From: Bacillota bacterium
GTDB lineage: Bacteria > Armatimonadota > HRBIN16
Direction: 5' to 3'
NCBI GenBank assembly: GCA_023511455.1
Contig: JAIMBJ010000004.1
Location: 124,001 to 188,000, forward strand
DNA: 64,000 bases
A model generated the notes under the pieces. The model had not been told where the DNA came from, ran no database searches, and saw only the letters and a program-made list of their open reading frames with translations. Made by a program: the position numbers and the translations under genes. Positions 1 through 14,923 of the stretch are shown one piece after another (the first letter of the stretch is position 1; the number at the start of each line of letters is the position of its first letter).

Positions 1-1787
1 GAGGCGACTGGACAAAGAGACTGGGAACCGTTGACGTATTGTGTTGCTCGCCGGCATCACTGGACAGGCGCGAGATAGAAACCGTGCGAGCCTGGGCACG
101 ACGCGGCAAAGGCTTGCTGCTGGCAGATTTGGGATGGGGCTGGCTACAGCTGAACCCCGGCAAGCAAATCACCGACCACCACGGCAATCTGTTACTGGCA
201 GACGCAGGCATCTACTGGGCAGACGGTTACCTGTCTACCACCTCACCGCGGGGATACCGTACCGACATTACCCCACCAGCGGAGTGTCACGCGCTGGTGG
301 CATTGCATACGCTGCGGCAATCCCCTCCCTCTTCCGAACCCACGGCGCAGAAACGGCTGCTTCAGGCGGAGTGGACACTGGAACAAGCGTTGCGCACGGT
401 TCCTTCCTCGCAAAAGCGATTTCTCTCCGAACTGCAGAAAGCCTGTGCGCGGGTACCCCAGGAGCTGATGTCCCTGAGCAAACCCGTAACGCAGGCGGAG
501 CCGCTAGCCCGCCTTGCCATCGCAGTGCAGACGGAGCAGATAAAGCGCTTGCCGCCAGAAAAGGTGAAAGCGCATCCTTCCGCGCAGACTTTTCCAGGTG
601 CCGTTCCTCCAGACGTGCCCCGAGTGGAACGCACCATCTCCGTTGATACGCGCATTCCCCGATGGCACAGCACCGGTTTATACGCCGCCCCCGGTGAAGT
701 CATCACTGTGGAGATACCTTCATCTGCTGCGGACAAGGGACTCTCGTTACGTATCGGCGTGCATACCGATACGCTGTGGCACCTGCCAAAGTGGGAACGT
801 GCTCCCGAAATCAGTTTCAGCTTCCCGCTGAAATCGGCAATTACTCGCGCCGCGAGCGCGTTCGGCGGCACCATCGTGATAGAAGTACCTGAAGGATGTT
901 CGCTCGGCAGGATAACCACCACCATTCGTGGCGCAGTGGAAGCCCCTTATTTCGTGCGGGGCAAAACCGGTCTGGAAGAGTGGAAACGCTCTATCCGCTA
1001 CGCCCCTGCGCCCTGGGCAGAGTTGCAGGGTAAGCGCGTGATACTCAGCGTGCCGTCGCGCGTGGTACGCACCCTGGATGACCCTGAAAGCTTGCTGGCA
1101 TTCTGGGACGCGGTCGTCGATGCCTGCGCCGATTTAGCGGGTATCCCTGCGGAACGCCCCTTCCCCGAGCGATACGTCTGTGACAGGCAGATTTCCGCTG
1201 GCTATATGCACTCCGGCTATCCCATCATGACGTGGATGGATGTGGCGGATCTGGTGGTTGACCTGCCGCGTCTGCGTCGGGAAGGCTCGTGGGGACATTT
1301 CCATGAAATGGGGCATAACCATCAGAGTCCCGACTGGACTTTTGAAGGCACCGGTGAAGTCACGGTGAACCTCTTCTCTATGTACATCTACCATAAGGTG
1401 CTGGGTCAGCCGTTTGACCAGGGGCACCCCGCCATCCGCGACCGCGAGAAGCGGTTACAGCGCGTGAAGGAATACCTGGCGCGCGGCGCGCGTTTCGAGG
1501 AATGGAAAAACGACCCGTTCCTGGCGTTGACCATGTACATCCATGTCATCGAGGCTTTCGGCTGGGAACCCATGAAACAGGTGATCGCGGAATACCGGCA
1601 GCTGCCAGCGCAGGAGCGTCCGCACACGGACGACCAGAAACGCGACCAGTGGATGATACGCCTGTCGAGGGCGGTGGGGAGAAACCTCGCGCCGTTCTTT
1701 GACCTGTGGGGAGTACCCATTTCGCAACAGGCGCGCGATGCGGTTCAACACCTCCCTGTGTGGTTACCGCCGGAGCTGCAGGGCTGA
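1..1787 (+). CDS. M60-like zinc metallopeptidase, 5' end cut by the window edge
   Basis: The reading frame is open to base 1 and reads as protein upstream of the first possible start (TTG at 39), so the gene begins outside the window. The N-terminal part (ADLGWGWLQLNPGK) looks like the Rossmann/GATase-like domain that often precedes M60 (enhancin-type) domains. The catalytic motif is HEMGHNHQ (HExxH) at about bases 1302-1325, followed within about 20 residues by FEGTGEVTVN, which supplies the third zinc-ligand Glu of gluzincins. M60 peptidases cleave glycoproteins such as mucins, so a secreted role in degrading glycosylated protein is likely, but the signal peptide region is not visible. The neighbour is convergent. 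The family call is firm; the substrate is inferred. Confidence 0.82.
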   Translation, partial: GDWTKRLGTVDVLCCSPASLDRREIETVRAWARRGKGLLLADLGWGWLQLNPGKQITDHHGNLLLADAGIYWADGYLSTTSPRGYRTDITPPAECHALVALHTLRQSPPSSEPTAQKRLLQAEWTLEQALRTVPSSQKRFLSELQKACARVPQELMSLSKPVTQAEPLARLAIAVQTEQIKRLPPEKVKAHPSAQTFPGAVPPDVPRVERTISVDTRIPRWHSTGLYAAPGEVITVEIPSSAADKGLSLRIGVHTDTLWHLPKWERAPEISFSFPLKSAITRAASAFGGTIVIEVPEGCSLGRITTTIRGAVEAPYFVRGKTGLEEWKRSIRYAPAPWAELQGKRVILSVPSRVVRTLDDPESLLAFWDAVVDACADLAGIPAERPFPERYVCDRQISAGYMHSGYPIMTWMDVADLVVDLPRLRREGSWGHFHEMGHNHQSPDWTFEGTGEVTVNLFSMYIYHKVLGQPFDQGHPAIRDREKRLQRVKEYLARGARFEEWKNDPFLALTMYIHVIEAFGWEPMKQVIAEYRQLPAQERPHTDDQKRDQWMIRLSRAVGRNLAPFFDLWGVPISQQARDAVQHLPVWLPPELQG

Positions 1788-1870
1788 TACGTGGACTGCG
1801 GCTCAGCGGGAGCCTCGCCCTCCAGCTCCGGGATGCCCCTATCAGGCACCGCTGCTATTTTTGATACTCG

Positions 1871-2614
1871 CTAGCCTTCGTCGTAGCCCTTCAGCGGGCG
1901 ATACCAGATGTTGCGGTAACGCACCAGGTCGCCGTGGTCCTGCAGGCGGAGCGGGCCTGTCGGCGGATGCGGCGTGTACGAGGGCAGAATGCGATGCTGT
2001 GTCGCCCCCATCAGATCGGTGGCGTGATGCACCACCACGCCGTTGTGCAGCACGGTAACCATCGCCGGGCGCACCAGCTTCTCCCCGTCGAATCGTGGGG
2101 CAAGCCAGATGATGTCGTAGGTCTGCCACTCGCCCGGCTTGCGGCAGGCGTTCACCAGCGGCGGATACTGCCCGTAAATGGCAGCGGTGGTGCCGTCGGG
2201 ATAGGTGATGTTGTCGTAGCAATCCAGCACCTGAATCTCGTAGCGTCCCATCAGGAACACGCCGCTGTTGCCGCGTCCCTGACCCTCTCCCTTCACAACG
2301 GCAGGTGCAGCCCACTCGATATGCAGCTGGCAATCACCGAAGTGCTCCTTCGTCTGGATGTCGCCCGTGCCCGGCACCACCTCCATATACCCGTTTTCCA
2401 CCTTCCACCGTGCCTCGCCGCCGTTCACCGACTCCCACCCAGCAAGGCTGGTGCCGTCAAACAGCATCACCGCGTCTGAAGGTGGTTCGCCGGGTTTCTC
2501 CTGCGTGCTGCAGGTGCCGGGCGTGACCACACGGGGTTGCGGTCGGTTGCCGTCATGCACTCGCCACCGGGTACCCGGCAAGAATGGGGTATCGTCATAA
2601 CCAATCTGTGCCAT
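1871..2614 (-). CDS. DUF1080 family (3-keto-disaccharide hydrolase-like) protein
   Basis: A 247-residue protein with the DUF1080 layout: an opening [11 protein letters not shown], a central [17 protein letters not shown] strand pair, [14 protein letters not shown], and the closing [18 protein letters not shown]. The fold is a concanavalin-like beta sandwich. Some members hydrolyse 3-keto-glycosides, and the family is expanded in Planctomycetes, Bacteroidetes and Armatimonadota. The start ATG at 2614 has a strong Shine-Dalgarno AAGGAGGA. The first 60 residues show no signal peptide, which is unusual because most homologues are secreted. The gene stands alone, convergent with the M60-like peptidase, so no operon partner points to its substrate. 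Confidence 0.85.
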
Positions 2615-2819
2615 AGCGATTCCTCCTTACTCTGGTGTATACTCATTACACGGCATCTGTGTATCCTCCTGCCGTGAGGGTAGCATCGCCTATACGCAGG
2701 GGTATCACTTAAAAATATGCGTTTTCATGGCAAGAAAAATGAAACATTCTGGCAGTTGCTGCGTCTATGCAATCGACAGGGCGTAGCAGAGACACACTTC
2801 CCGAAGAGGTGAAACTGCG

Positions 2820-3851
2820 ATGGTATCGCCAACAACCACCCTGGAACGCTTGCGCCATTATTTACGGCAAAACCAGTCTCGCCTGCGAGCGGCGCCGACG
2901 CAGGCGGAACAGGTGGACATGCTTGCGCAAATACAGCAGCCCTCCGATGACTACCCTGTAGCAAGCCTCAGGGTGGTTGAGCACGCCGAGATGCGGGCGA
3001 TAGCCGTGCGCCCTGTCTCCCAGTCCAATGCCCTCAAACACTTTCTGGACGGCATCCAGCGACAGCGCATCCTCTACTACGAGGGAATGGTGCCCGTGTT
3101 CTATGCCTACCTGTCGGCGGTGGTGCGCTCTCGGGTAGATAGGAAGATGTGCTGTCTGCCGCAAACTGGCTCCCTCGTACGAAGAGACGCCCTGTATGCG
3201 CCTTTACGTTATGTGGATGCTCAGGGATTGCGCCAGCAGGGCATTCCTCTCCGCGACGTGGAGATTGACGAGCCGCTTCCCGCACATCCTGCGCTAATCC
3301 AGCTCACGGCGAACCGCATCTCCAACGACCGCGAGGTACTGGAACGCGAGCTGGCTGAGCAATGGATGAACTGGCTCAGCACAAAAGGCTCGGAAGACTG
3401 GCTGGTGGTGGATGGAGCCATCGCTGAACTTGTTCGAATAATCCCCAATGCAAAGGTTATCGGTCTGGCAAAGACGAGTGTGGGCGTGGAACGTGCGCTC
3501 ACTCCAGAGCAGATGCAGGTCGTGTACGGTTTGCGCAAGGCGGAACGCAGCAGCGTGTTTACAGTAACGCGCCCCGGTCAGGCGACGGTTTACTCGTGGT
3601 TTCTGCGCCTGCACGACCCGACGAAGGGCAGTCTGCTGTACGGGTTGTTACGCGTCGAGATGCCCGCCAACCAAAGCCTGTTGAAGCAGGTAGACACCCT
3701 CTCTACGTGGATTCTGGAAGACCGTGTGCCCCTAGCCGTGCCCGACACGCGCTACGACCGCCTGCTCTACCCCATGCGGGACTGCGAACAGTATCTGCGC
3801 GCACACGCCCCGAGCGCGGCGCAGCTGGAAGCGCTGGCGCAGCTGGTGTAG
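2820..3851 (+). CDS. NurA-like nuclease (5'-3' end-resection partner of HerA)
   Basis: A 343-residue protein recognised as NurA-like from ordered motifs. These are FLDG (about 76-79) where NurA has its first metal-binding DGS-type Asp, an acidic helix REVLERELAE (171-180), DWLVVDGA (193-200) with the second Asp, VIGLAKTS (213-220) and LYGLLRVEMP near the C-terminus. NurA nucleases resect DNA ends together with a hexameric HerA ATPase. A HerA-like ATPase starts 770 bp downstream on the same strand, with a Uma2-type gene inserted between on the other strand. ATG at 2820 has an AGAGGTG Shine-Dalgarno about 8 nt upstream. Sequence similarity is at motif level only, so this is probable rather than certain. 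Confidence 0.68.
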   Translation: MVSPTTTLERLRHYLRQNQSRLRAAPTQAEQVDMLAQIQQPSDDYPVASLRVVEHAEMRAIAVRPVSQSNALKHFLDGIQRQRILYYEGMVPVFYAYLSAVVRSRVDRKMCCLPQTGSLVRRDALYAPLRYVDAQGLRQQGIPLRDVEIDEPLPAHPALIQLTANRISNDREVLERELAEQWMNWLSTKGSEDWLVVDGAIAELVRIIPNAKVIGLAKTSVGVERALTPEQMQVVYGLRKAERSSVFTVTRPGQATVYSWFLRLHDPTKGSLLYGLLRVEMPANQSLLKQVDTLSTWILEDRVPLAVPDTRYDRLLYPMRDCEQYLRAHAPSAAQLEALAQLV

Positions 3852-3852
3852 A

Positions 3853-4542
3853 TTACAACTCGTCGACGTCTTCCACGCCGAGTTCACGCAACCGCGCCGC
3901 GAGTCGTTCCGCCCGTTGACGTTCCTGCTCTGCCAGTCGACGCGCCTCTTCCCGCTGGCGTTCCATCTCCTCAGGCGACAGGAACCGCTCGCCATCGGGA
4001 CGCACCAGCACCAGCTGCCCTTCATCGAGACCGAACCGAATGCCCAGACGGGGGCTCACCCAGCCCTCCAGTTCCTCAATGGGTTGCAATCGCCCCTCAC
4101 GCCGTACCCAGCCGTCCAGACTGCCCCGGTCGGGGTCGTACAGATAGTATTCCTCCACGCCATACCGGTCATAAAAGGCGAGTTTGTCCATCAGCTCGTG
4201 GAAGCGGTTGTTGGGAGAGACAATCTCGAACACCACTTGCGGTGGCACATTCTCTTCTCGCCACTGCCGGTATGCGGTTCGGTCTCCCTTTGGTCTTCCG
4301 AAGACAACCATCACATCGGGGGCGCAGCGTATTTCCGGATGCCCATATTCGGGATACCACAGCAAATCTGCCGCCACAAACACATTCGGGTCGTCCCGGA
4401 ACATGCCCGCCAGCCCCGTGTAGATGGTCACTATCCAGCGCAGCTGTTTGGTGTTGTCTGCCATGGGCTTTCCATCGCTCGCCGGGTAGAGCGCTTCCTC
4501 CTTGCGAAGTTCTCTCTCCAGTTCCGGAGACAGGATGACCAT
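3853..4542 (-). CDS. Uma2 family (PD-(D/E)XK-fold) putative endonuclease with coiled-coil tail
   Basis: The Uma2/DUF820 pattern is clear: APDVMVVFG (catalytic Asp), then VVFEIVSPNN (the ExK-like strand; as in many Uma2 proteins, no clean Lys), DKLAFYDRYGVEEYYLYDPD and the closing GIRFGLDEGQLVLVRPDG. The last about 45 residues are Arg/Glu-rich and helical, the frequent Uma2 coiled-coil tail. The fold is nuclease-like; biological roles in the family are mostly unproven. The ATG at 4542 was chosen over an in-frame TTG at 4563. The gene lies head to tail with the NurA-like gene (stops 1 bp apart) and divergent from the HerA-like gene, so it interrupts that pair. Uma2 genes are multicopy and mobile in many genomes, which fits an insertion. 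Confidence 0.85.
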   Translation of the reverse strand: MVILSPELERELRKEEALYPASDGKPMADNTKQLRWIVTIYTGLAGMFRDDPNVFVAADLLWYPEYGHPEIRCAPDVMVVFGRPKGDRTAYRQWREENVPPQVVFEIVSPNNRFHELMDKLAFYDRYGVEEYYLYDPDRGSLDGWVRREGRLQPIEELEGWVSPRLGIRFGLDEGQLVLVRPDGERFLSPEEMERQREEARRLAEQERQRAERLAARLRELGVEDVDEL

Positions 4543-4620
4543 CTCCCCCACCTGCCTTGACAATCGTCTACGTGTTTATGTTACCATAAGAGAGAGGCGA
4601 TTGTATAGCGAGGTATCCCG

Positions 4621-6621
4621 ATGGCAACGCCAGCAAACGACAAACCGATTGGGCGAGTGGTGGGTACGGAACGCAAGCCGAACACCGCCTTCACCTTCAA
4701 CTTCTGGTGCAACCCCGACGCACCCGTCGGCATCGGCACGATTGTGGTGGTGCGCAGCGAGGCGCGTACCGTGTGGGGGGTGGTCACCGAGGGCTTCGGT
4801 TATAACGACCTCGAGACCCCCATCTACGATTACATCGGCTCGGATGGGGTGGCGGAAGCCGAAACTCCCACTGTGCGCCCAGAGATGCGTTTGTACGTCG
4901 CCTCCGTACTGCGCCAGCAGCCGGAAGAACCGGTGCAGCCCGCCCCAATCGCGCCCGTATACTTAGCCGACGAGACGGAGGTGTGCATGGCGTTGCGCAT
5001 GGACTCGTTCGACGCGCGCGGCATCCCGATTGGCGTCTACCGCAACGGCGAGCGGCTTTCGCCCATTCTGCTGGACAGCCGCTTCCTGCTGGGTCCTGAA
5101 GCGGGGCATCTCAACGTGACGGGGACCTCCGGACTCGCCGCCAAAACCAGCGCGATTATGTTCCTGATTCAAGCCACTTTCCAAAAGCTGTCTGAAGACA
5201 GGACAGTGGCGGCGCTGTTGTTTAACGTGAAGGGCGGCGACCTGATGTTTATCGACCTGCCGCCCGAAGACGATTTCCTGACTGACGAGGATAAGCGCAT
5301 GTACGACGCGCTGGGCGTGCAGCCGAAACCGTTTGAAAAGGTGGAATACTACGCCCCGTTCAAGCAGGACAGGGTCAACCTGAACACGCTGCGCACCCAT
5401 CCCGACCTGCGCCACAACGTCTACCCCCTGCACTGGGGGCTGAAAGAGGTGCTGGACTACACCGAAGTGATGCTGAATCGCGACGACATTGACGTGAAAG
5501 CCGATGCCTTCCTGCAGTTTATCAAACAGCGCGTGGTAGACCCCGGCAAGTTCGAGTTCGACAAAGAGGAACAGGACGCCGGTGCGCCCCCGGTCATGAC
5601 TGTCAGCAACTTCTCCGAGTTAACGCGCTGGCTGGACACGGTGCTGCGGGTGGCAGAGAAGCGTGGACGCGAAGCGTGGCGATCGCACGCCTACCCCACC
5701 ATCCGGAAGGTGTATAACCGCCTGAGCAACCTGACCACCCGCTATCGCGGACTGGTGGGCGAGAGCGGTTACGTCTCCGACCTGCCTGACCGCTTTGAGG
5801 ACAGAACCGTTTATGTCATCGACGTTTCGCAGCTGGAGCAGGAGGAGCAGGACCTCATCATCACGCGCGTGATTGCCGAGCTGCGCAAGCGCATGGAGAG
5901 CCATCAACTGGGCGTAGACCACCTGATTGTGGTGGTGGACGAGCTGAACAAGTACGCGCCCTCCTTCGGCAGGGAAACCTACATGTTGCGCACCCTGCTG
6001 GACATCACCGAACGCGGACGCTATCTGGGGCTGGTGCTGTTTGGGGCGCAGCAGTTTCGTTCACAGGTGGAGCGGCGCGTGGCGGGCAACTGCGCCACCA
6101 GCCTGTACGGGCGCATCGAGATGGAGGAGCTGGCGCAGCCGGGATACAGCGTGTTCGGGCAGGCAGTGAAGGAGAAACTCGCGGCGTGCGAGCCGGGCGA
6201 GGTGCTGGTGCGCCATCCCCACTTCACACAGCCGGTGTTTGTGCGCTTCCCCCGCCCCTGCTACCTGCGCGGTTCGGATGGCATTCGCCGCTACCCGCCG
6301 CAGGAGAAGCCGTTTGACGTTGCCGTGTGGGAGACCTTACGGCAGATTGCCCCGCAACTGGAGTATACAGCGGTCAAAACAGTTATTGACGACCACGCCG
6401 CGCAGAGCAACGGGATGGACGTGAACCGCGTATCCGAAGCGATGCACCGCGTGCTGCTGGAGCGTCCGGAGCCGTCGCGCGTGCTGGAGCGGTTCAAAGC
6501 GTATTTACCAAAACCGCTTGCCGTTTCTGTGGTGTCGTCGCCTGCAGGACTCACGGGTCCTGCCTTCGATCCTGCAGCGGGCGACAACTACGACCCTGAC
6601 GACCCGTTCTCGGCATTTTGA
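4621..6621 (+). CDS. HerA-like hexameric ATPase (FtsK/HerA superfamily, DUF87)
   Basis: A 666-residue protein with an N-terminal HAS-barrel-like beta domain (about 1-150), a P-loop GTSGLAAKTS at 168-177 and a Walker B DEL at about 440 in VVVDELNKYAPS. An arginine-rich C-terminal ATPase part includes LFGAQQFRSQVERRV. HerA ATPases pump or unwind DNA for the NurA nuclease in end resection. The P-loop lacks the usual Gly just before Lys (AAKTS instead of GSGKS/T), a form I associate with bacterial HerA-like proteins rather than a dead site. ATG at 4621 is preceded by GAGG at 7 nt. The NurA-like gene upstream is the expected partner, although the Uma2 gene separates them. Confidence 0.8.
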   Translation: MATPANDKPIGRVVGTERKPNTAFTFNFWCNPDAPVGIGTIVVVRSEARTVWGVVTEGFGYNDLETPIYDYIGSDGVAEAETPTVRPEMRLYVASVLRQQPEEPVQPAPIAPVYLADETEVCMALRMDSFDARGIPIGVYRNGERLSPILLDSRFLLGPEAGHLNVTGTSGLAAKTSAIMFLIQATFQKLSEDRTVAALLFNVKGGDLMFIDLPPEDDFLTDEDKRMYDALGVQPKPFEKVEYYAPFKQDRVNLNTLRTHPDLRHNVYPLHWGLKEVLDYTEVMLNRDDIDVKADAFLQFIKQRVVDPGKFEFDKEEQDAGAPPVMTVSNFSELTRWLDTVLRVAEKRGREAWRSHAYPTIRKVYNRLSNLTTRYRGLVGESGYVSDLPDRFEDRTVYVIDVSQLEQEEQDLIITRVIAELRKRMESHQLGVDHLIVVVDELNKYAPSFGRETYMLRTLLDITERGRYLGLVLFGAQQFRSQVERRVAGNCATSLYGRIEMEELAQPGYSVFGQAVKEKLAACEPGEVLVRHPHFTQPVFVRFPRPCYLRGSDGIRRYPPQEKPFDVAVWETLRQIAPQLEYTAVKTVIDDHAAQSNGMDVNRVSEAMHRVLLERPEPSRVLERFKAYLPKPLAVSVVSSPAGLTGPAFDPAAGDNYDPDDPFSAF

Positions 6622-6658
6622 TACGGTACAGGCTAAAAGCGAAAGGAACGTGAGCGCG

Positions 6659-7363
6659 ATGCCTTCTGCCCCTGCAGCGGCTGACCATCTCTGTCAGCTG
6701 ATACAAAACAAGAATCTGCTCCAAATGCCGTCGAGGTTGCTGGTTGCCGGCTGCGGCAATGGTTCGGAAGCACTTCACCTTTACCATAATCTGCAAATCC
6801 CTGTCGTCGCGTTCGACATTAAAGAACACCCCTCGTGGCATTCAAAACCGCCAGGGGTGTGGTTTCTCCGAGCGGATGTCGGGCGTTTACCCTTCCCGGA
6901 TGAAAGCTTCGACGCTGTTTTTTATCACCATGTCATCGAACATGTCCCCGACCCCGAAGCCAGCTTGCGGGAGCTTGGTCGGGTACTGTGTAACGGGGGC
7001 TGGATGTACATCGGCACCCCCAATCGTCGCCGGGTAGTTGGCTATTTAGGGTCTCCCAACGCTACATGGAGGCAGAAGCTGGCGTGGAATCTCGTAGATT
7101 ACAAAGCGAGGTTGCGCGGGCGGTTCCGCAACGAGCTGGGCGCACATGCCGGATTCACCCAAGCGGAACTGCAGGCAATGCTATCGCCCTATTTCGCAAG
7201 AGTGCAGTGGCTAACCGCCGACTACCTTCGCTTCAAGTACGGCACGAAGCTGCCAGCACCCTTCCTCAAATTACTGGTCAGCAGATGGGGCGTGCAGTTT
7301 CTGGCGCCGGCAATCTATGCACTCTGCCGGAAGGGCGAAACACCGGCAACGGCAGAGCAGTGA
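6659..7363 (+). CDS. Class I SAM-dependent methyltransferase
   Basis: A Methyltransf_11-type protein. Motif I is LLVAGCGNGSEAL, the acidic ribose-binding residue lies in VVAFDIKEH, motif II is DVGRLPFPDESFDAVFYHHVIEHVP and motif III is LCNGGWMYIGTPN. The C-terminal quarter is basic and hydrophobic and may contact membrane or a glycan-lipid substrate. ATG at 6659 was chosen because AAAGGA lies 11 nt upstream; GTG at 6650 and the much longer open frame from 6518 (overlapping the HerA-like gene) are less likely. The substrate cannot be told from the sequence. The gene follows the HerA-like gene by 37 bp and may be cotranscribed. Confidence 0.8.
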   Translation: MPSAPAAADHLCQLIQNKNLLQMPSRLLVAGCGNGSEALHLYHNLQIPVVAFDIKEHPSWHSKPPGVWFLRADVGRLPFPDESFDAVFYHHVIEHVPDPEASLRELGRVLCNGGWMYIGTPNRRRVVGYLGSPNATWRQKLAWNLVDYKARLRGRFRNELGAHAGFTQAELQAMLSPYFARVQWLTADYLRFKYGTKLPAPFLKLLVSRWGVQFLAPAIYALCRKGETPATAEQ

Positions 7364-7368
7364 GGGCG

Positions 7369-8032
7369 TCACCCCAATTTGCGGTACTCCGCCTCCAGCT
7401 GCTGCCGCTCGGCTTCGGAGGGCATGGAACGCCGTAGGATGCCCCTGTAGCGGATAATGCCCCGGCTGTCCAGCAGAATCACCTGCTTCTGGATTAAGGG
7501 GTTGCGCACGCCGGTGTCGTCGTTCGCCCACTCGTCGCTCACCATCATCCAGAAGCCGATGCGCGGGTGTTGTAACGCGCGATAAAGTTGCTGCAAATCG
7601 CGCCGGTTCGACGACGCATAAGCAGAGGGCGTAACCACCACACCGACCAGATGAAGGTCCGGGCAACGTGCAAGCAGGTCACGCCATCCCTGCCACTGTT
7701 CGGGTTTCCACGCCGCTGCACCATCGAACCACAGGGGGAACCAGAGTAACACGGGCTTCCCCCGTCTCGTACACAGCCACCCTGCCGAAGGTCTCCGAGG
7801 GCACGTTCAATGCGGGGAACGGATTGCCCACCGCGAAGCCGCGCCGCGTCTGCCGCATGGCTTCCCACTTTCTTGACCAGGCAACCGCTTCCTCGCGCAT
7901 GGCCAGCAAGCGCTGCTGGCGCTGTTGATGCTCGCGCCACAACACCACCTGCCAGGCAACTACCGGAATCAACACAAGCACCAGCACCGTCAAGCCTTCA
8001 CGAGACACAAGCCACGAAAACACACTTCTCAT
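7369..8032 (-). pseudogene. Frameshifted membrane-anchored thioredoxin/peroxiredoxin-like protein
   Basis: Two overlapping minus-strand frames make one protein. The upstream frame (8032 to 7679) encodes an N-terminal membrane anchor, a charged helix and GNPFPALNVPSETFGRVAVYETGEA, the usual entry to a TlpA/AhpC-type fold. The downstream frame (up to 7752) continues with VLLWFPLWFDG, GVVVTPSAYA and VILLDSRGIIRYRGI, a typical end of such a fold. A one-base change near 7740-7756, in a stretch with G5 and C3 runs, would join them. The expected CxxC is absent, so even the repaired protein would not be a classical oxidoreductase. The start ATG at 8032 has GGAGGTGA. It may be a real mutation or a sequence error. 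Confidence 0.65.
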
Positions 8033-8085
8033 CGTTCACCTCCGCGTTTTTCAACTGGTGAAGCAGGGCATTCACCTTCATACCT

Positions 8086-8721
8086 TTACAGCTCCATCGC
8101 ATCCTGAAACGTGGAAGCCGCGGTACCCGTAGCTGCCATTCCCCCCTTCATGCTCAGGTCCACACTGCCGTCCTTGCGCAACACGACGACAGGGGACTCC
8201 GGGAAAAACCAGGCACGGCGGTCTATCGGGTAACTGGCTCCAAGGTAAAAGGGCTCGCGATGCTCACGACAAATCACCACAGGAGTCCTCTCCCCTCGTT
8301 TCTCCATCACCTCGCTGAATGTCATGTGTCCTTCCCGAAGGGCAATCTCGTCCAGCGCCTGACGACAAAAGGTAAAATAGGATGACCAACCACCGGGTGG
8401 GCGAAACGTTTTCTACAGCTCTTTGATTGCTTCTGCTGCCACGCGGGCTTCCCACGGGCAAATCATGATGTCCATCGACGCATATTGCGGTACCAGCTAA
8501 TTAACGTAACAAGGCCAGTCCTCCGTTTGGTAATCCGCCTGATACATCTTGATGGCTTGCCCAATCTGACGGAGCTGGCTCTGACACACCGAGACGTAGG
8601 TGCGGCGCAGTGACTGGGAGATCGCCGGATACGGCAACGCAGCTAATATCGCAATAATGCTCACTGCAGCGAGTATCTCTATCAGTGTAAACGCTTGGAG
8701 TCTTGTGTGTCTACAGATCAT
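8086..8721 (-). pseudogene. Prepilin-like (type IV pilin/DUF1559-style) gene with two in-frame TAG stops
   Basis: The frame starts at ATG 8721 with a class III prepilin signal: a short basic leader, then AFTLIEILAAVSIIAILAAL and CQSQLRQIGQAIKMYQADY, as in H-X9-DG prepilins. After 74 codons a TAG follows YVN, then LVPQYASMDIMICPWEARVAAEAIKEL, a second TAG, and an open frame to 8086. All three segments are in the same frame (8721 and 8325 differ by 132 codons), and the middle has the expected pilin-like IMICPW motif. The simplest reading is a pseudogene made by two nonsense changes. TAG is the normal terminator of several nearby genes (topA, metH, ppdK), so general reassignment is excluded. Confidence 0.6.
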
Positions 8722-8761
8722 CGTTTCCCCCCCTTTTTATACCCGCCGGCACCTCAACGGA

Positions 8762-9118
8762 TTACAATCCGTAGCATTCTGGATCCGGCCACCGATCTTT
8801 TTGCCTGCATTCGCAGTCTGCCTGTCCATCCCTGTTGCAATCATAAAATCGCTTGACAGTGAGTCCCATCTTACCTAGAGCACAGCACTCGAAATTCATA
8901 AACACCCTCCACGGCGGGCAGTTGACTGTGCAGTCCGAACCGCTACAACCGCAGTTGTTCGGGTCTTCGCATCCCCTTTCGCAGGTGCTAACCCTGCAAG
9001 GATGTACACTTGCCCAGACACGCACCGGGAACAGCACGACAGCAACGTCCAGCGTTGCTGCCAGCAGAAGCATCAGGCACAGACGCACTGCACCACGGAA
9101 AAGTCCCTTGTAGTTCAT
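8762..9118 (-). CDS. Small secreted cysteine-rich protein of unknown function
   Basis: 118 residues: a signal peptide (basic start, hydrophobic LCLMLLLAATLDVAVVLF, then an A-S-like cleavage site) and an about 80-residue mature part with 13 cysteines, including CGCSGSDC and an ECC pair. Near the end, DCNRDGQADCE resembles a calcium loop of dockerin or thrombospondin type 3 repeats (DxNxDGxxD). ATG at 9118 was chosen over a longer frame because AGAAGG precedes it and the signal peptide starts there. I recognise no family. The density of Cys suggests a disulfide-bonded exported protein. It lies downstream of a mini sigma-region-4 protein and upstream of the broken prepilin. Confidence 0.6.
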   Translation of the reverse strand: MNYKGLFRGAVRLCLMLLLAATLDVAVVLFPVRVWASVHPCRVSTCERGCEDPNNCGCSGSDCTVNCPPWRVFMNFECCALGKMGLTVKRFYDCNRDGQADCECRQKDRWPDPECYGL

Positions 9119-9208
9119 CTTAAAGCCTTCTTTTCCGGTTGCGTTTCCATTATAAATAAACGCATCAGCCTTCCAAAATGGGACAACCAGACGCCGTTTT
9201 TCGCACAA

Positions 9209-9478
9209 TTAACCCCCCTCGCCTGCCACGTGCCGCTCCCGCCGGCGCAGCCTGGCGATCGCACGCTGGTACACCTTGCGCACGCTGTCGGTATGGCAAT
9301 CCATCCGCTGGGAAATCTCTTCGAAGGTGTACTGCTCCTCGAGGTGCATTCGGACAATCTGTGCTTCATCCGCCACGTCCGCAGCAACGTCGGCATCGAA
9401 GCCGTCATGGCGAAAGCGCTTAGCCGCGCGGGCAAGCCATCTTCGATAGCCCGTGCCATCGCGACCAACGCTCCGCAT
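9209..9478 (-). CDS. Small sigma-70 region 4-like DNA-binding protein
   Basis: About 89 residues whose second half, YTFEEISQRMDCHTDSVRKVYQRAIARL, is a textbook region 4 helix-turn-helix of a sigma-70 family (ECF-like) factor. No region 2 is encoded upstream in any frame, so this is either a stand-alone region 4 regulator or a remnant of a sigma factor. ATG at 9478 has GAGG at about 8 nt; GTG at 9487 is an alternative. The genes downstream on the same strand are the Cys-rich secreted protein, the broken prepilin and the thioredoxin-like pseudogene, which may once have been its regulon. Confidence 0.55.
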   Translation of the reverse strand: MRSVGRDGTGYRRWLARAAKRFRHDGFDADVAADVADEAQIVRMHLEEQYTFEEISQRMDCHTDSVRKVYQRAIARLRRRERHVAGEGG

Positions 9479-9622
9479 CGAGACCACCTCAATCTTGCGT
9501 TGCGGATTGCCCCCATTATAATGCGTTGCGTCTCTGCGGTCAAGGAACCCCCCTTGACACTATCCACCCGCTGCTGGTACATATACCTGCGTGCCTGAGA
9601 AAGCACCAGAGGCAGGACGGAT

Positions 9623-10525
9623 ATGTGCAAAGAGGAACTCGTTCCAACCCATTGCGGTTTTGTGGCGATTGTGGGCAAGCCGAATGTGGGCAAGTCCACG
9701 CTGTTGAACGTCATGCTGGGGGTGAAGGTGTCCGCCATCACATCGCGCCCACAGACCACACGGCGGGGTGTGCGCGGTATCTACACCGAAGGCAACCGCC
9801 AGGTGGTGTTTGTGGATACACCCGGCTGGCATCAGCCGAAGGATCGACTGGGAGAGTACATGATCGAGCAGATAGACGGCGCGCTCGAGGATATCGATCT
9901 CGTGCTGTGGGTGGTGGACCTGCGTCATCCCCCCACCCCTGAAGATGAAGACCTGGCGAGCCGATTACAGAAGGTGCAGGCGCCAGTGTGGATGGTAGGC
10001 AATAAAGTGGACGCCGCGAAGTATCCCGAACAGGCGATGCAGGCGTACAGTGCGCTGTTGCCGAATGCGCAGCGGCACATCATGCTTTCCGCGCTGAAAG
10101 ACCCCAAAGCGGTCTACCGCCTGCGCGAGGAGATATTGCTGGCGATGCCCGAATCGCCTTTCTATTATCCAGTGGACATTCGCTCCGACCAGTCGCGCCA
10201 GGACTGGGCAGCCGAGATTGTGCGCGAGCAGGCGATGAGCCTGTTGCGGGAGGAGATACCGTATACCATCGCCGTGCGCGTGACCGACTGGGAACAGCGT
10301 GAAAACGGGGTACAGTATATCCGTGCGGAGCTGATTGTGGAGCGTGAGAACCATAAATCCATCGTCATCGGCAAGGGAGGCAGGATGCTGAAGCAGATTG
10401 GGCAGGAGGCGCGTAAACAGCTGGAGCTGTTTTTGGGAAGCAAGGTGTATCTGGAACTGGTGGTGAAGGTGATGCCCGATTGGCGACGCAATCCCAAAGC
10501 ATTGCAGGAGCTGGGCTATGAGTAG
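9623..10525 (+). CDS. era: GTPase Era (30S ribosome assembly)
   Basis: 300 residues, normal for Era. GTPase motifs are GKPNVGKS (G1), a T-rich switch RPQTTRRGV (G2), DTPG (G3) and NKVD (G4). A C-terminal KH domain carries [21 protein letters not shown]. Era binds the 3' end of 16S rRNA and takes part in 30S maturation, acting at the inner membrane and ribosome. The stop overlaps the start of topA by 8 bases, indicating cotranscription and probably translational coupling. The ribosome binding site is weak (GAGGCAGGACGG). Confidence 0.97.
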
Positions 10526-12806
10526 GAAAAAGACAGGGTCCGCCAAACCGCTGATTATCGTGGAGTCGCCTGCGAAGACCAAAACGCTGAAAAACTTCCT
10601 GGGCGACGACTATCGGGTGGAAGCCTCGATGGGGCACGTGCGCGACCTGCCGGAGAAGGAGTTCGGCGTGGACCTGAGTAACGGCTTCACTCCCAAATAC
10701 GAAACGTTGCCCGAACGGCAGGATGTGCTGAAAAAACTGGCAGAGGCGGCGGCAAGTGCCCCCGAAGTATACCTGGCGTCCGACCCCGACCGTGAGGGCG
10801 AAGCCATCGCCTGGCACCTGAAGGAAGCGCTTCGCCTGCAAAACGCCCGACGCATCGAGTTTAACGAGATTACCCGGCAGGCGGTTCAGCAGGCACTGCA
10901 GCACCCGCGCGACATCGATATGAACCGCGTCAACGCACAGCAGGCACGGCGTATCTTAGACCGCATTGTGGGTTACAAGCTCAGCCCCCTGCTCTGGAAG
11001 AAAGCCAGCCGCAACACGCTGAGCGCGGGACGGGTGCAGTCGGTCGCGGTGCGGCTGGTGGTGGAGCGCGAGCGCGAAATCGAAGCCTTTGTGCCTGAAG
11101 AGTACTGGACCATCACCGCCCGCCTGACCCCCGACACCGAAGCGAACGCCTTCGACGCCACGCTGCGCCTGCGCGACGGCGAGAAGGTGGAGCTGCACAA
11201 CGAACAGGAAGCCAGCGCCGTGCTGCAGGAGCTGGAGGGAGCACAGTATGTGGTGCAGAAGATAAAGCGCACCGAGCGCAAGCGCAACCCGTCCCCGCCG
11301 TTCATCACCAGCACCCTGCAACAGGAGGCGGCGCGTAAACTGGGCTTCAGTGCGAAACGCACCATGCAGATTGCCCAGCAGCTGTATGAAGGCGTGGAGC
11401 TGGGTGCGCAGGGCTCCGTCGGATTGATTACCTACATGCGCACCGACTCCACCCGCGTCGCCGCCGAAGCGCAGCAGCAGGCACGCGAATACATCGGCAA
11501 AGAGTTCGGCGACCGCTATGTGCCCGAAAAGCCGCCTCAGTATCGCTCACGGCGGGGAGCGCAGGAGGCACACGAAGCCATCCGCCCCACCTCGGTAACG
11601 CGCACCCCCGAGTCGGTGAAAAGCTACCTGTCCAAAGACCAGTATGAGCTGTACCGCCTCATCTGGCAGCGTTTCATTGCCAGCCAGATGGCACCGGCGG
11701 TGCTGGATGTGGTGACGGTAGACATTCAGGCAGGAAGGTACACTTTCCGTGCCACCGGCTCCAGCGTCAAGTTTGACGGATTCATGCGCGTCTACGTCGA
11801 GGGCAAAGACAACGGCGAACTCAGCGACGAGGAGCGTCCCCCGCTACCGCCGATGCTGGAAGGCCAGGTGCTTACGTTGCTCGCGCTGCTGCCCGAACAG
11901 CATTTCACCGAGCCACCCCCTCGCTACACCGAAGCCACATTGGTGAAAGCGCTGGAAGAGAAGGGCATCGGCAGACCCAGCACCTATGCGACCATTCTCT
12001 CTACCATTGTGGAGCGCGGATACGTGGAGCTGAAAGAGAAGCGATTCTATCCCACCGCGCTGGGCATTGCCGTGACCGACTATCTGGTGAAGCACTTTCC
12101 CGATGTGATGGACGTGCAGTTCACCGCTTCCGTCGAGCAGCAGCTGGACGAGATTGAGGAAGGCAAGCAGGCGTGGACGGAGGTGCTGCGCGCCTTTTAT
12201 GAACCGTTCGCACAACGGCTCACGGAGACGGAAAGGAACGGTGAATTCGTGCGCATCGAGGCGAAGGAGACCGATTACACCTGTCCGACCTGCGGCGCGA
12301 AGATGCTGCTGCGCGAGGGGCGTTACGGCAAGTTTCTCGGTTGCTCGCGCTACCCGGAGTGCAAAACGATTGTCAACGTGACCCGCAGCGGCGAACCCGT
12401 CCCACCAGACAAGCCGTCCGACGAGGTCTGCGAGAAGTGCGGTTCGCCCATGGTTATCCGCTGGGGCAGGTACGGCGAATACCTCGCCTGCACCAACGAG
12501 CAGTGCAAGGCGCACCGACCGCTGGAGAAGAGCACGGGCATCACCTGCCCTGCCTGCCAGCAGGGACAGCTGGTAGAGCGACGCGCACGCAAAGGCAAGC
12601 TGCGTGGCAAGGTCTTCTACGGCTGCAACCGCTACCCTGCCTGCGACTTCACCTTGTGGGACAAGCCGGTGGACAGAACGTGCCCGAAGTGCGGCTCGCT
12701 ACTGGTGGAAAAGCGCACCGGTAAGCGATTGACCATCGCCTGCTCCAGCAAAGCCTGTGACTACCGCGAGGAGCCGTCGGCGGAGGCGCAGGCACTGGCG
12801 TCCTAG
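10518..12806 (+). CDS. topA: DNA topoisomerase I (type IA)
   Basis: 762 residues. The Toprim domain starts at [13 protein letters not shown] and holds the acidic motif [13 protein letters not shown]. The catalytic tyrosine lies in [12 protein letters not shown], and the type IA gate domains follow. The C-terminal about 170 residues hold four Cys4 zinc ribbons (CPTC...CSRYPEC, CEKC...CTNEQC, CPAC...CNRYPAC, CPKC...CSSKAC). It relaxes negative supercoils through a 5'-phosphotyrosine intermediate. It overlaps era by 8 bases and is followed after 14 bp by the RecQ-like gene. A topA-dprA neighbourhood is common in bacteria; here a helicase gene sits between them. Confidence 0.97.
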
Positions 12807-12820
12807 AGGAGTGGTATGCG

Positions 12821-14923
12821 TTGGATGACCTTTTCGAGCGTGCCCAGACGTTGTTGCGTCACGGGCTACAAGATGCGACTGCTACGTTCCGCGACGGGCA
12901 ATGGGAAGCGATAGAGTCGCTGGTACGTAACCGCCAGCGTTTGCTGCTGGTGCAACGCACCGGCTGGGGCAAAAGCATCGTCTACTTCATCGCGGCTCGA
13001 TTGCTCCGCGAGCAAAACGGTAACCACGGTGTATCACTGCTGATATCGCCGCTATTGTCACTGATGCGCAACCAGATGGACATGGCGCACCGCATGGGTA
13101 TCCGCGCGGAAACCATTCACTCTGCCAACACGGAGCGGTGGATCGAGGTCAAAAACCTTTTGTATCAAGACCAGATTGACGTTCTCTTAATTAGCCCAGA
13201 GCGCCTGGCGAATCAGGAGTTCGAGGCAGAGGTGCTTCAGCCCATTGCGTCGCGGATTCTGCTGTTCATTGTGGACGAAGCGCACTGCATCTCCGACTGG
13301 GGACACGACTTCCGCCCCGACTACCGGCGAATCACCCGCGTGCTGAAACTACTGCCGAGAAACGTGCCCGTTCTGGCCACTACGGCTACCGCGAATGACC
13401 GCGTTGTTGCCGACATCAAACAACAGCTGGGCGACGACCTTCGTATCAATCGAGGAGCACTGGCACGGCGTAGCCTGCGGCTGCAAAACGTGATACTGCC
13501 CTCGCAAGCGGAACGACTGGCTTGGCTCGCGGCACACTTGTCCGAACTGCCTGGCAGCGGCGTCATCTACACGCTGACCGTCGCTGATGCAGAGCGCGTC
13601 GCCCTATGGCTCCAGCACAAAGGGTGGCAGGTGTATCCGTATCATGCCGACATTGAAAACTCGGAACGCGAAAGGCGAGAGCGACTGCTGCTGCACAACC
13701 AAGTCAAAGCGCTTGTAGCCACTGTCGCTTTGGGCATGGGATTTGACAAACCCGACTTAGGCTTCGTGGTGCACTTTCAGAGGCCTGGGTCGGTGGTGCA
13801 TTATTACCAGCAAATCGGCAGAGCAGGCAGGTCTCTGGAAAATGCACTGGTCATCCTTTTGGGTGGCGAAGAAGACGATGAGATTGTGGATTACTTCATC
13901 CGTACCGCTCTCCCCCCGCAAGCGCACACCGAAGCAGTACTACACGCATTAAGCCACAGCCCAAACGGGCTAACTCTCGTTGAGCTGGAGCGCAAGGTCA
14001 ATCTCTCACGACAACAACTGGACAAGGTGCTTCGCCTACTGCTATCAGAGACCCCTGCTCCACTGTTTTACTTGGGTCGACGCTACCAATTAGCCCCTGT
14101 GGCATACAGGATGGACCATGAACGTATTGCGAGGCTAACCGCCCTGCGTCGCGCCGAACAAGAGCAGATGCGGCAGTATATGCAAAGCCAGCAGTGCCTG
14201 ATGCAGTTCCTGCAGATAGCGCTGGATGACCCCTATGCAGAACCCTGTGGCCGATGCGCTGTCTGCGTTGGTAGCGACATAATCGCGCCAGAGGTAGAGG
14301 ACTCTTTGGTGCGAGAAGCCATACTCTTCTTACGCCGTGCCGATGTTCCAATACCGCCCCGAAAGATGTGGCCGAGTAAGGAAGGACTGATGATTACCGG
14401 CGGGCAGGGAAAGATTCCCGAGCTGCTTCAAGCGGAAGAAGGACGCGCACTATGCCTGTGGGGTGATGCTGGCTGGGGGAGTTTGGTGCGTAAGGGCAAG
14501 TATCAGGACGGTTTTTACGACGATGACCTGGTAAAGGGGATGGAGGAGATGATACACCGTTGGCAACCCCAACCTGCGCCCCGCTGGATTACCTGTGTGC
14601 CTTCCCTGCGCCATCCCAGCCTGGTGCCCGACTTCGCCCAAAGGTTAGCACAGCGGCTCCAGTTGCCCTTTGTGCCGTGTGTGAAAAAAGTGCGCGAAAC
14701 CAAGCCGCAAAAGGAGATGCAAAACAGTTTCCATCAGGTGCGCAACCTGGATGGAGCGTTTGCCATTGAGCGGTGGTCCGGCATCGCAGAGCCTGTTTTT
14801 CTGGTAGACGATGTGGTAGACTCAGGATGGACGCTCACCGTAGTGGCTTTCCTGCTACGAAGGGCAGGAAGCGGTGCCGTCTTTCCGATTGCACTTGCCA
14901 AACAGGTTCTGCGTGGGGAGTAA
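12821..14923 (+). CDS. RecQ-family helicase fused to a C-terminal ComF-like phosphoribosyltransferase domain
   Basis: A 700-residue two-part protein. The RecQ core has Walker A GWGKS at 48-52, DEAH at 152-155, the ATTATA motif and the QIGRAGR motif VI, followed by a zinc site (Cys459, Cys476, Cys479, Cys482). There is no HRDC domain. From about residue 540 the sequence follows a ComF-type PRTase: WITCVPSLRHPSL, FAQRLAQRLQLPF, QVRNLDGAFAI and the PRPP-loop motif VFLVDDVVDSGWTL at 659-672. The start is TTG at 12821, with AGAGGAG about 10 nt upstream. The next gene begins 3 nt after the stop and is DprA-like. Helicase, PRTase and DprA echo ComFA/ComFC/DprA of competence and the PRTase-DprA pair of ShosTA defence. 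Confidence 0.85.
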   Translation: MDDLFERAQTLLRHGLQDATATFRDGQWEAIESLVRNRQRLLLVQRTGWGKSIVYFIAARLLREQNGNHGVSLLISPLLSLMRNQMDMAHRMGIRAETIHSANTERWIEVKNLLYQDQIDVLLISPERLANQEFEAEVLQPIASRILLFIVDEAHCISDWGHDFRPDYRRITRVLKLLPRNVPVLATTATANDRVVADIKQQLGDDLRINRGALARRSLRLQNVILPSQAERLAWLAAHLSELPGSGVIYTLTVADAERVALWLQHKGWQVYPYHADIENSERERRERLLLHNQVKALVATVALGMGFDKPDLGFVVHFQRPGSVVHYYQQIGRAGRSLENALVILLGGEEDDEIVDYFIRTALPPQAHTEAVLHALSHSPNGLTLVELERKVNLSRQQLDKVLRLLLSETPAPLFYLGRRYQLAPVAYRMDHERIARLTALRRAEQEQMRQYMQSQQCLMQFLQIALDDPYAEPCGRCAVCVGSDIIAPEVEDSLVREAILFLRRADVPIPPRKMWPSKEGLMITGGQGKIPELLQAEEGRALCLWGDAGWGSLVRKGKYQDGFYDDDLVKGMEEMIHRWQPQPAPRWITCVPSLRHPSLVPDFAQRLAQRLQLPFVPCVKKVRETKPQKEMQNSFHQVRNLDGAFAIERWSGIAEPVFLVDDVVDSGWTLTVVAFLLRRAGSGAVFPIALAKQVLRGE

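Follow-up and report, generated by a model that had tools for sequence, protein, structure and literature searches.

The locus described here lies in a 64,000-nucleotide stretch (the window) of an armatimonadotal genome of 3.85 Mb. Two plus-strand genes, encoding proteins that resemble the NurA nuclease and the HerA translocase, flank a minus-strand gene of the Uma2 family. This arrangement, proposed in an initial annotation from the sequence alone, is borne out by reading frames, profiles and predicted folds, and all the motifs quoted there are present (FLDG, DWLVVDG and VIGLAKT in NurA; GTSGLAAKTS and VVVDELNKYAP in HerA). The gaps of 1 bp and about 60 bp noted there are 1 bp between the stop codons of nurA and Uma2, and 57 bp between the TTG start of Uma2 and herA. 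Translation of Uma2 more probably begins with the ATG at position 4542 (229 aa), a codon common to the copies found at this place in relatives; that start would leave 78 bp before herA. The features discussed below are:

2820..3851, plus strand: nurA, 343 aa, bacterial-type NurA nuclease with an RNase H-like fold (frame, profile, predicted fold)
3853..4563, minus strand: Uma2-family gene between nurA and herA, 236 aa from the TTG start (Pfam match)
4578..4586, minus strand: TGGTAACAT, candidate extended -10 element of Uma2, picked out by eye
4621..6621, plus strand: herA, 666 aa, bacterial-type HerA translocase (frame, profile, predicted fold)
5122..5151, plus strand: variant P-loop GTSGLAAKTS of HerA (K175, T176), aligned to GisGvatkts of Deinococcus radiodurans HerA
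6259..6618, plus strand: C-terminal extension of HerA past the ATPase, about 120 residues, a small helical region followed by a divergent linker
6592..6618, plus strand: HerA tip DPDDPFSAF, similar to the end of the single-stranded DNA-binding protein (SSB) encoded in the same genome (...YDPFADTEEE)

Scans of the window NurA with Pfam, NCBIfam, PADLOC and PHROG returned nothing. In particular, the Pfam NurA model PF09376 had no match in this genome, nor with hmmscan up to an E-value of 10; the same model gave matches in 7 of 14 control genomes. A profile built on 14 NurA relatives (alignment A1, from which L015, the NurA of G037, was excluded) matched D. radiodurans NurA (7f6d, E 4e-4) and TM1739 of Thermotoga maritima (E 7e-4). 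A further match of this profile, to M156R (E 0.015), was taken as chance. The predicted model (predicted local distance difference test, pLDDT, 85.5) was closest in fold to D. radiodurans NurA (7f6d_G, Z 19.7, 280 residues aligned, root-mean-square deviation 3.7), then to TM1739 (Z 17.9), TdpB (8wfd_G, Z 14.0) and Sulfolobus solfataricus NurA (Z 13.8), with archaeal NurAs at Z 10.6-13.8; the RNase H-like NurA fold is recognized in this comparison. Four motifs, FLD77G, VD198G, GxxK218 and GLxRxE280, are invariant, including D77, D198, K218 and E280 in all 14 rows, which we take to be the catalytic positions of the active site. In the profile alignments, DG, K and R-x-E have counterparts in TM1739, and K and R-x-E also in 7f6d; motif I lay outside these sequence matches to solved NurAs. 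By the refuting condition of the initial annotation, the lack of a NurA profile match, the assignment would fall if judged by the Pfam model, but it is upheld by the A1 profile and by fold comparison, which place the protein in a bacterial NurA branch apparently outside the reach of that model.

The window HerA matches HerA models, though below the curated cut-offs of Pfam and NCBIfam. A profile of 14 HerA relatives (alignment A2, without L021-L023, L033-L035 and L037-L039) aligned nearly end to end with D. radiodurans HerA (7f6d_B, E 3e-81), and the predicted model (pLDDT 75.2) found its best fold match in the same protein (7wrw_B, Z 36.0 over 525 residues). Profile and fold together recover the HAS barrel, the RecA-like core and the Walker motifs known from D. 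radiodurans HerA, and K175, T176, D440 and E441 are invariant in A2. In PMC9960219, the first two are given as Walker A residues of the D. radiodurans protein. The ‘variant P-loop’ pointed out initially is indeed present but is not peculiar to this protein, since the profile alignment places the same loop type in D. radiodurans HerA. From profiles and predicted folds, the plus-strand genes are best described as a pair newly added to the bacterial NurA-HerA family. Chance frames can be set aside on sequence grounds, because the reading frames are conserved in the genus and nurA and herA co-occur across the phylum.

Each of the two genes was found in 9 of the 10 genomes of the genus, the present one included. 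In a sample of 61 genomes (own, genus and phylum), NurA was found in 15 and HerA in 18. Profile searches of 291 phylum genomes gave NurA in 64 and HerA in 69, with both proteins in 58, NurA only in 6, HerA only in 11 and neither in 216 (Fisher p 1e-42). Among the 40 same-strand neighbour pairs of the phylum, 29 are spaced by 8-132 bp; this count used 68 HerA genomes, without G035 (a weak canonical HerA) and some secondary fragments, and the Fisher table used 69. We also scanned the best 80 of 530 confirmed relatives in named genomes, of which 56 were counted on the Gemmatimonadota side; the nearest records include ‘Chthonomonadia bacterium isolate Ch118’ (L040) and other Armatimonadota. NurA accompanied HerA in 64 of these 80 loci, with a gap of 164 bp or less in 57, and 11 of the 12 remaining loci that were searched as whole genomes (out of 16) have nurA elsewhere. 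The prevailing order in relatives is therefore nurA directly upstream of herA. It is interrupted in the window, and the two genes are unlinked in one family (f31), whose single-contig genome G212 has them at 2.87 and 1.74 Mb. Bacterial NurA-HerA is said in PMC9960219 to be present in only few bacteria, such as Deinococcus-Thermus, and the literature listings showed no work on the pair in Armatimonadota or Gemmatimonadota. Here the pair is a widespread two-gene unit in both phyla, beyond the bacteria named in that text.

The present genome also carries a remnant of a second HerA type, with a stop codon (G000:C2:82824-83039), and its congener G009 has a second, intact NurA-HerA pair (C135:8816-11314).

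The Uma2 protein scored 67.4 bits against PF05685 (Pfam cut-off 27) and belongs to this family. Both ends of the nurA-herA gap could be read in 8 of the 10 genomes of the genus, and a full-length Uma2 gene is found in four of these gaps (G000, the window genome, and G002, G003 and G009). In G005 the frame is broken by a G run one G longer than in G003. The 277-bp gap of G007 holds a Uma2 remnant between intact nurA and herA, and the sites of G001 (48 bp) and G004 (91 bp) are empty. In G006, nurA is followed by a full-length Uma2 and a further stretch, and the contig ends before herA. Uma2 is also absent from the gap in G027, and its presence there is confined to one genus within the sample. 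The initial annotation had asked whether Uma2 is missing from some nurA-herA loci: it is, and intact pairs with short gaps exist in relatives.

The spacer of the empty site in G001 (TAGAGAAATTTCTAC...) recurs in G002 on the right side of Uma2. Slightly altered versions of it are present at that place in G003, G005 and G009, and the window genome and G007 have lost it. Upstream of herA it includes the AGAAATTTCT palindrome (TAGAGAAATTTCTAC), conserved in the spacers of G001, G002, G003, G005, G009 and G008 and likewise lost in the window genome and G007. It is not a dispersed repeat, as G001 and G002 have one exact copy each and G000, G003, G005 and G009 have none; possibly it is an operator. 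The motif TGnTAACAT, the candidate -10 element, was seen by eye in the slot copies of G000, G007, G002, G009, G003 and G005. A promoter and terminator scan of the region did not list it and told little, with 3 promoter-like sites (shuffled mean 1.1) and 2 terminator-like sites (shuffled mean 3.5).

In a tree with 14 paralogues, the slot Uma2 copies form one clade (support 100/99). In the joint nurA-herA tree, the filled sites lie on one side of a branch (support 76/95, recovered in 75% of bootstraps). The ratio of nonsynonymous to synonymous substitution rates (dN/dS) between slot copies was 0.046-0.077 in nine of ten pairs, the tenth being saturated, and 0.07-0.16 for nurA. Intact slot copies are therefore under strong purifying selection, which points to an independent function for Uma2. 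The same genome holds 31 Uma2 matches, and none were found in G027 or G040. Uma2 proteins have been described as likely solo toxins and predicted PD-(D/E)XK nucleases (PMC2701414), and as a paralogous family expanded in cyanobacteria and Thermus (PMC2701414, PMC1274311).

Other genes occupy the same gap elsewhere. In four Gemmatimonadota loci (L066, L067, L079 and L083), it holds a minus-strand gene for a 23S-rRNA-intervening-sequence protein (PF05635); these insertions require three changes on the HerA tree, two of them forced by starred branches. In G008 (C408, L043:1-595), a minus-strand toxin-antitoxin-type pair, PIN and AF2212-like, lies upstream of herA before the contig end, and the stretch beside Uma2 in G006 (C231, L007) resembles it by eye. 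The gap of G040 carries a plus-strand DUF4365 gene. Those of L081 and L084 contain frames that, going by their motifs, we take to be kinase-like and FAD-enzyme-like. Such independent entries over deep divergence may be ordinary operon erosion and not the mark of an insertion hotspot.

Taken together, these results make it very probable that a bacterial NurA-HerA end-processing pair, once a tight unit, was split by a single antisense Uma2 insertion which acts on its own. By analogy with the D. radiodurans complex, the HerA hexamer would pump double-stranded DNA into the NurA dimer, which would cut it by the Mn-dependent 5'-3' nuclease activity expected of a bacterial NurA. The two genes would originally have formed a tight two-gene unit, and in the ancestor of most of the genus a single Uma2 gene would have entered in antisense orientation, just past the stop codon of nurA and ahead of the spacer that used to separate the two genes. 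It probably came with its own promoter, as the conserved TGnTAACAT suggests. Purifying selection would have kept it in most species, with loss or breakage in some, and the protein would act alone, perhaps as the solo toxin-like nuclease described for the family, outside the NurA-HerA machine. Uma2 would then show clearly how one selfish-type gene can enter an operon gap and stay there under selection.

Several points weigh against this interpretation. The nuclease and ATPase activities are predicted ones, and the Pfam NurA model is silent. The order of gain and loss of Uma2 rests on the weakly supported branch mentioned above, and the extra G that breaks the frame in G005 may stem from faulty sequencing. 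The purifying selection on Uma2 is hard to reconcile with a gene that is only a decaying passenger. Finally, no transposition signature was seen for Uma2: terminal repeats were not found, and its flanks, compared by eye with those of the 14 paralogues elsewhere, showed no common borders. Of the early proposal that a mobile nuclease gene interrupted the operon, the interruption thus stands, with the empty sites of G001 and G004 and the short gaps of 57 of 64 named loci; the mobility remains putative.

Two other explanations have to be weighed. One sees in the pair a module for anti-phage defence, comparable to TdpAB and other HerA-nuclease systems, and not a complex for repair. TdpB is the third-best fold match of the NurA model, and selfish-type genes do occur in the nurA-herA gap. 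However, the D. radiodurans folds fit clearly better (Z 19.7 and 36.0, compared with 14.0 and 22.1), PADLOC yielded nothing for NurA and HerA except one weak, generic HerA match (E 0.0013), the genes nearby are era, topA and one for a RecQ-like helicase (Pfam scan of nine window neighbours, 39 to 14920), and the presence of each gene in nearly all the genus does not favour a defence role; we consider it improbable. The other, that Uma2 is a third, lineage-specific component which tunes or guards NurA-HerA and is held beside the pair by selection, had been raised in the initial annotation and could draw on the strong constraint on intact slot copies and their retention in place through most of the genus, but we judge it slightly less probable still, because Uma2 is antisense to the pair, confined to one genus in the sample, absent in G001, G004 and G027, reduced to a remnant in G007 with the pair intact, and one of 31 matches in its genome, with unrelated genes filling the same gap in other lineages. 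From sequence comparison, Uma2 is therefore better regarded as a lineage-specific insertion, and a lineage-specific functional link to NurA-HerA is unlikely.

The less ordinary part of the locus is the tail of HerA. Its helical region is conserved among 37 Armatimonadota HerAs with the tip (e.g. G 1.00, D 0.95, R 0.81), and the 20 residues preceding the tip are only 12% identical; in the predicted model, linker residues 633-657 have a pLDDT under 50. The letters of the tip columns in these rows (D 0.97, P 1.00, F 1.00) follow from selecting rows with the tip. When no such selection is made, [DE]PF followed by at most five residues ends 43 of 48 Armatimonadota HerAs; the five without it are those of G223, of G188 (DPF further in) and of G010, G024 and G037 of family f2. 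On the Gemmatimonadota side, 54 of 56 HerAs end in [DE][PE][YF] and at most four residues, mostly DDPYGF-like. As a background, the tip was found in 19 of 197 long frames from 22 sources, never twice in the same source, and the letters identify all 19 as the HerA tips of the sources concerned. An acidic-P-aromatic C-terminal tip after a divergent linker is thus present in HerA. The plasmid HerA relatives (six records) lack it in the two that were read.

The Armatimonadota SSBs end similarly, with [DE]P[FW] and at most seven residues in 59 of 65 rows (including G024b, a second and doubtful row), in genomes with and without HerA, and their D-P-F tip is itself non-terminal. No SSB exceeded the cut-off in G226, none was found in G259, and none in 2 of another 16 genomes searched. 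The SSB of the window genome ends in YDPFADTEEE, and paired tips are found in G245 (SSB YDPFAEE, HerA PNDPFAY) and G212 (SSB LDDPFR, HerA EDDPFL). In Gemmatimonadota, the likeness is loose, SSB ending DDDLPF-like and HerA DPY-like. In PMC9960219, D. radiodurans HerA is described as ending in a short protrusion, the last 14 residues of which are disordered in crystals. Among the titles and abstract openings in the literature listings, no claim of a HerA with an SSB tail or of tip mimicry was seen.

We tentatively propose, at somewhat less than even odds, that the HerA tail mimics the C-terminal end of the SSB made by the same cell in Armatimonadota, and in modified form in Gemmatimonadota, and that the hexamer docks six tips on the SSB-tip pockets of RecJ, RecQ or RecO. 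HerA may in this way dock on SSB partners such as RecJ, the use of the SSB-partner pocket being our inference. If so, docking by the tail would let NurA-HerA pass DNA ends on to RecJ, or vie with SSB for them, and it could explain why the RecJ C-terminal domain binds both the SSB C-terminal tip (SSB-Ct) and HerA in D. radiodurans. Such mimicry, if real, would connect NurA-HerA with the RecF-pathway resection machinery in a way that can be tested directly; in D. radiodurans, the division of labour is described as open in the discussion of PMC4663267. The tail of HerA makes the pair a variant that merits a binding test. The Uma2 insertion is a genuine, lineage-specific event of modest interest.

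Two further observations concern neighbouring genes. The RecQ-like helicase of the window (12821-14923) has a weak C-terminal phosphoribosyltransferase match, below the cut-off, and RQC and HRDC were not matched in the Pfam scan. On two plasmids, L277 (Candidatus Chlorohelix) and L278 (Aulosira), a NurA-like frame and a HerA relative precede SbcD and an SMC-family ATPase; this order, annotated in L277 and similar in L278, recalls archaeal nurA-herA-mre11-rad50 clusters.

Among known systems, the closest is NurA-HerA of D. radiodurans (7f6d, 7wrw, 7wrx), with the full-length HerA profile match, the best fold match for both proteins, the same P-loop type, and nurA directly upstream of herA in most relatives of the window pair. 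The D. radiodurans genes were deleted jointly as an operon, as given in the methods of PMC9960219; in contrast, the window pair is split by the inserted Uma2 gene, and in place of a short protrusion its HerA is extended by about 120 residues and carries an acidic D-P-F tip. The Uma2 protein resembles its family (PF05685, COG4636) in scoring over the Pfam cut-off and in having expanded paralogues in its genome, and differs in being a single copy inside an operon gap, not a cassette of paralogues. TdpAB (8wfd) likewise combines a HerA-type ATPase with a nuclease of NurA fold, and the window proteins score lower against it than against the D. radiodurans pair. TdpAB defence involves TdpC and phosphorothioate-modification partner genes; none of these names appeared among the nine neighbours scanned with Pfam, and no wider look was taken. 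As in SSB-Ct, acidic residues and a P-aromatic tip end the divergent linker of window-type HerA, with D-P-F followed by up to seven residues in Armatimonadota SSB and by up to five in HerA. In contrast to SSB-Ct, the HerA tip sits on an ATPase, and in Gemmatimonadota it is DDPYGF-like where SSB is DDDLPF-like.

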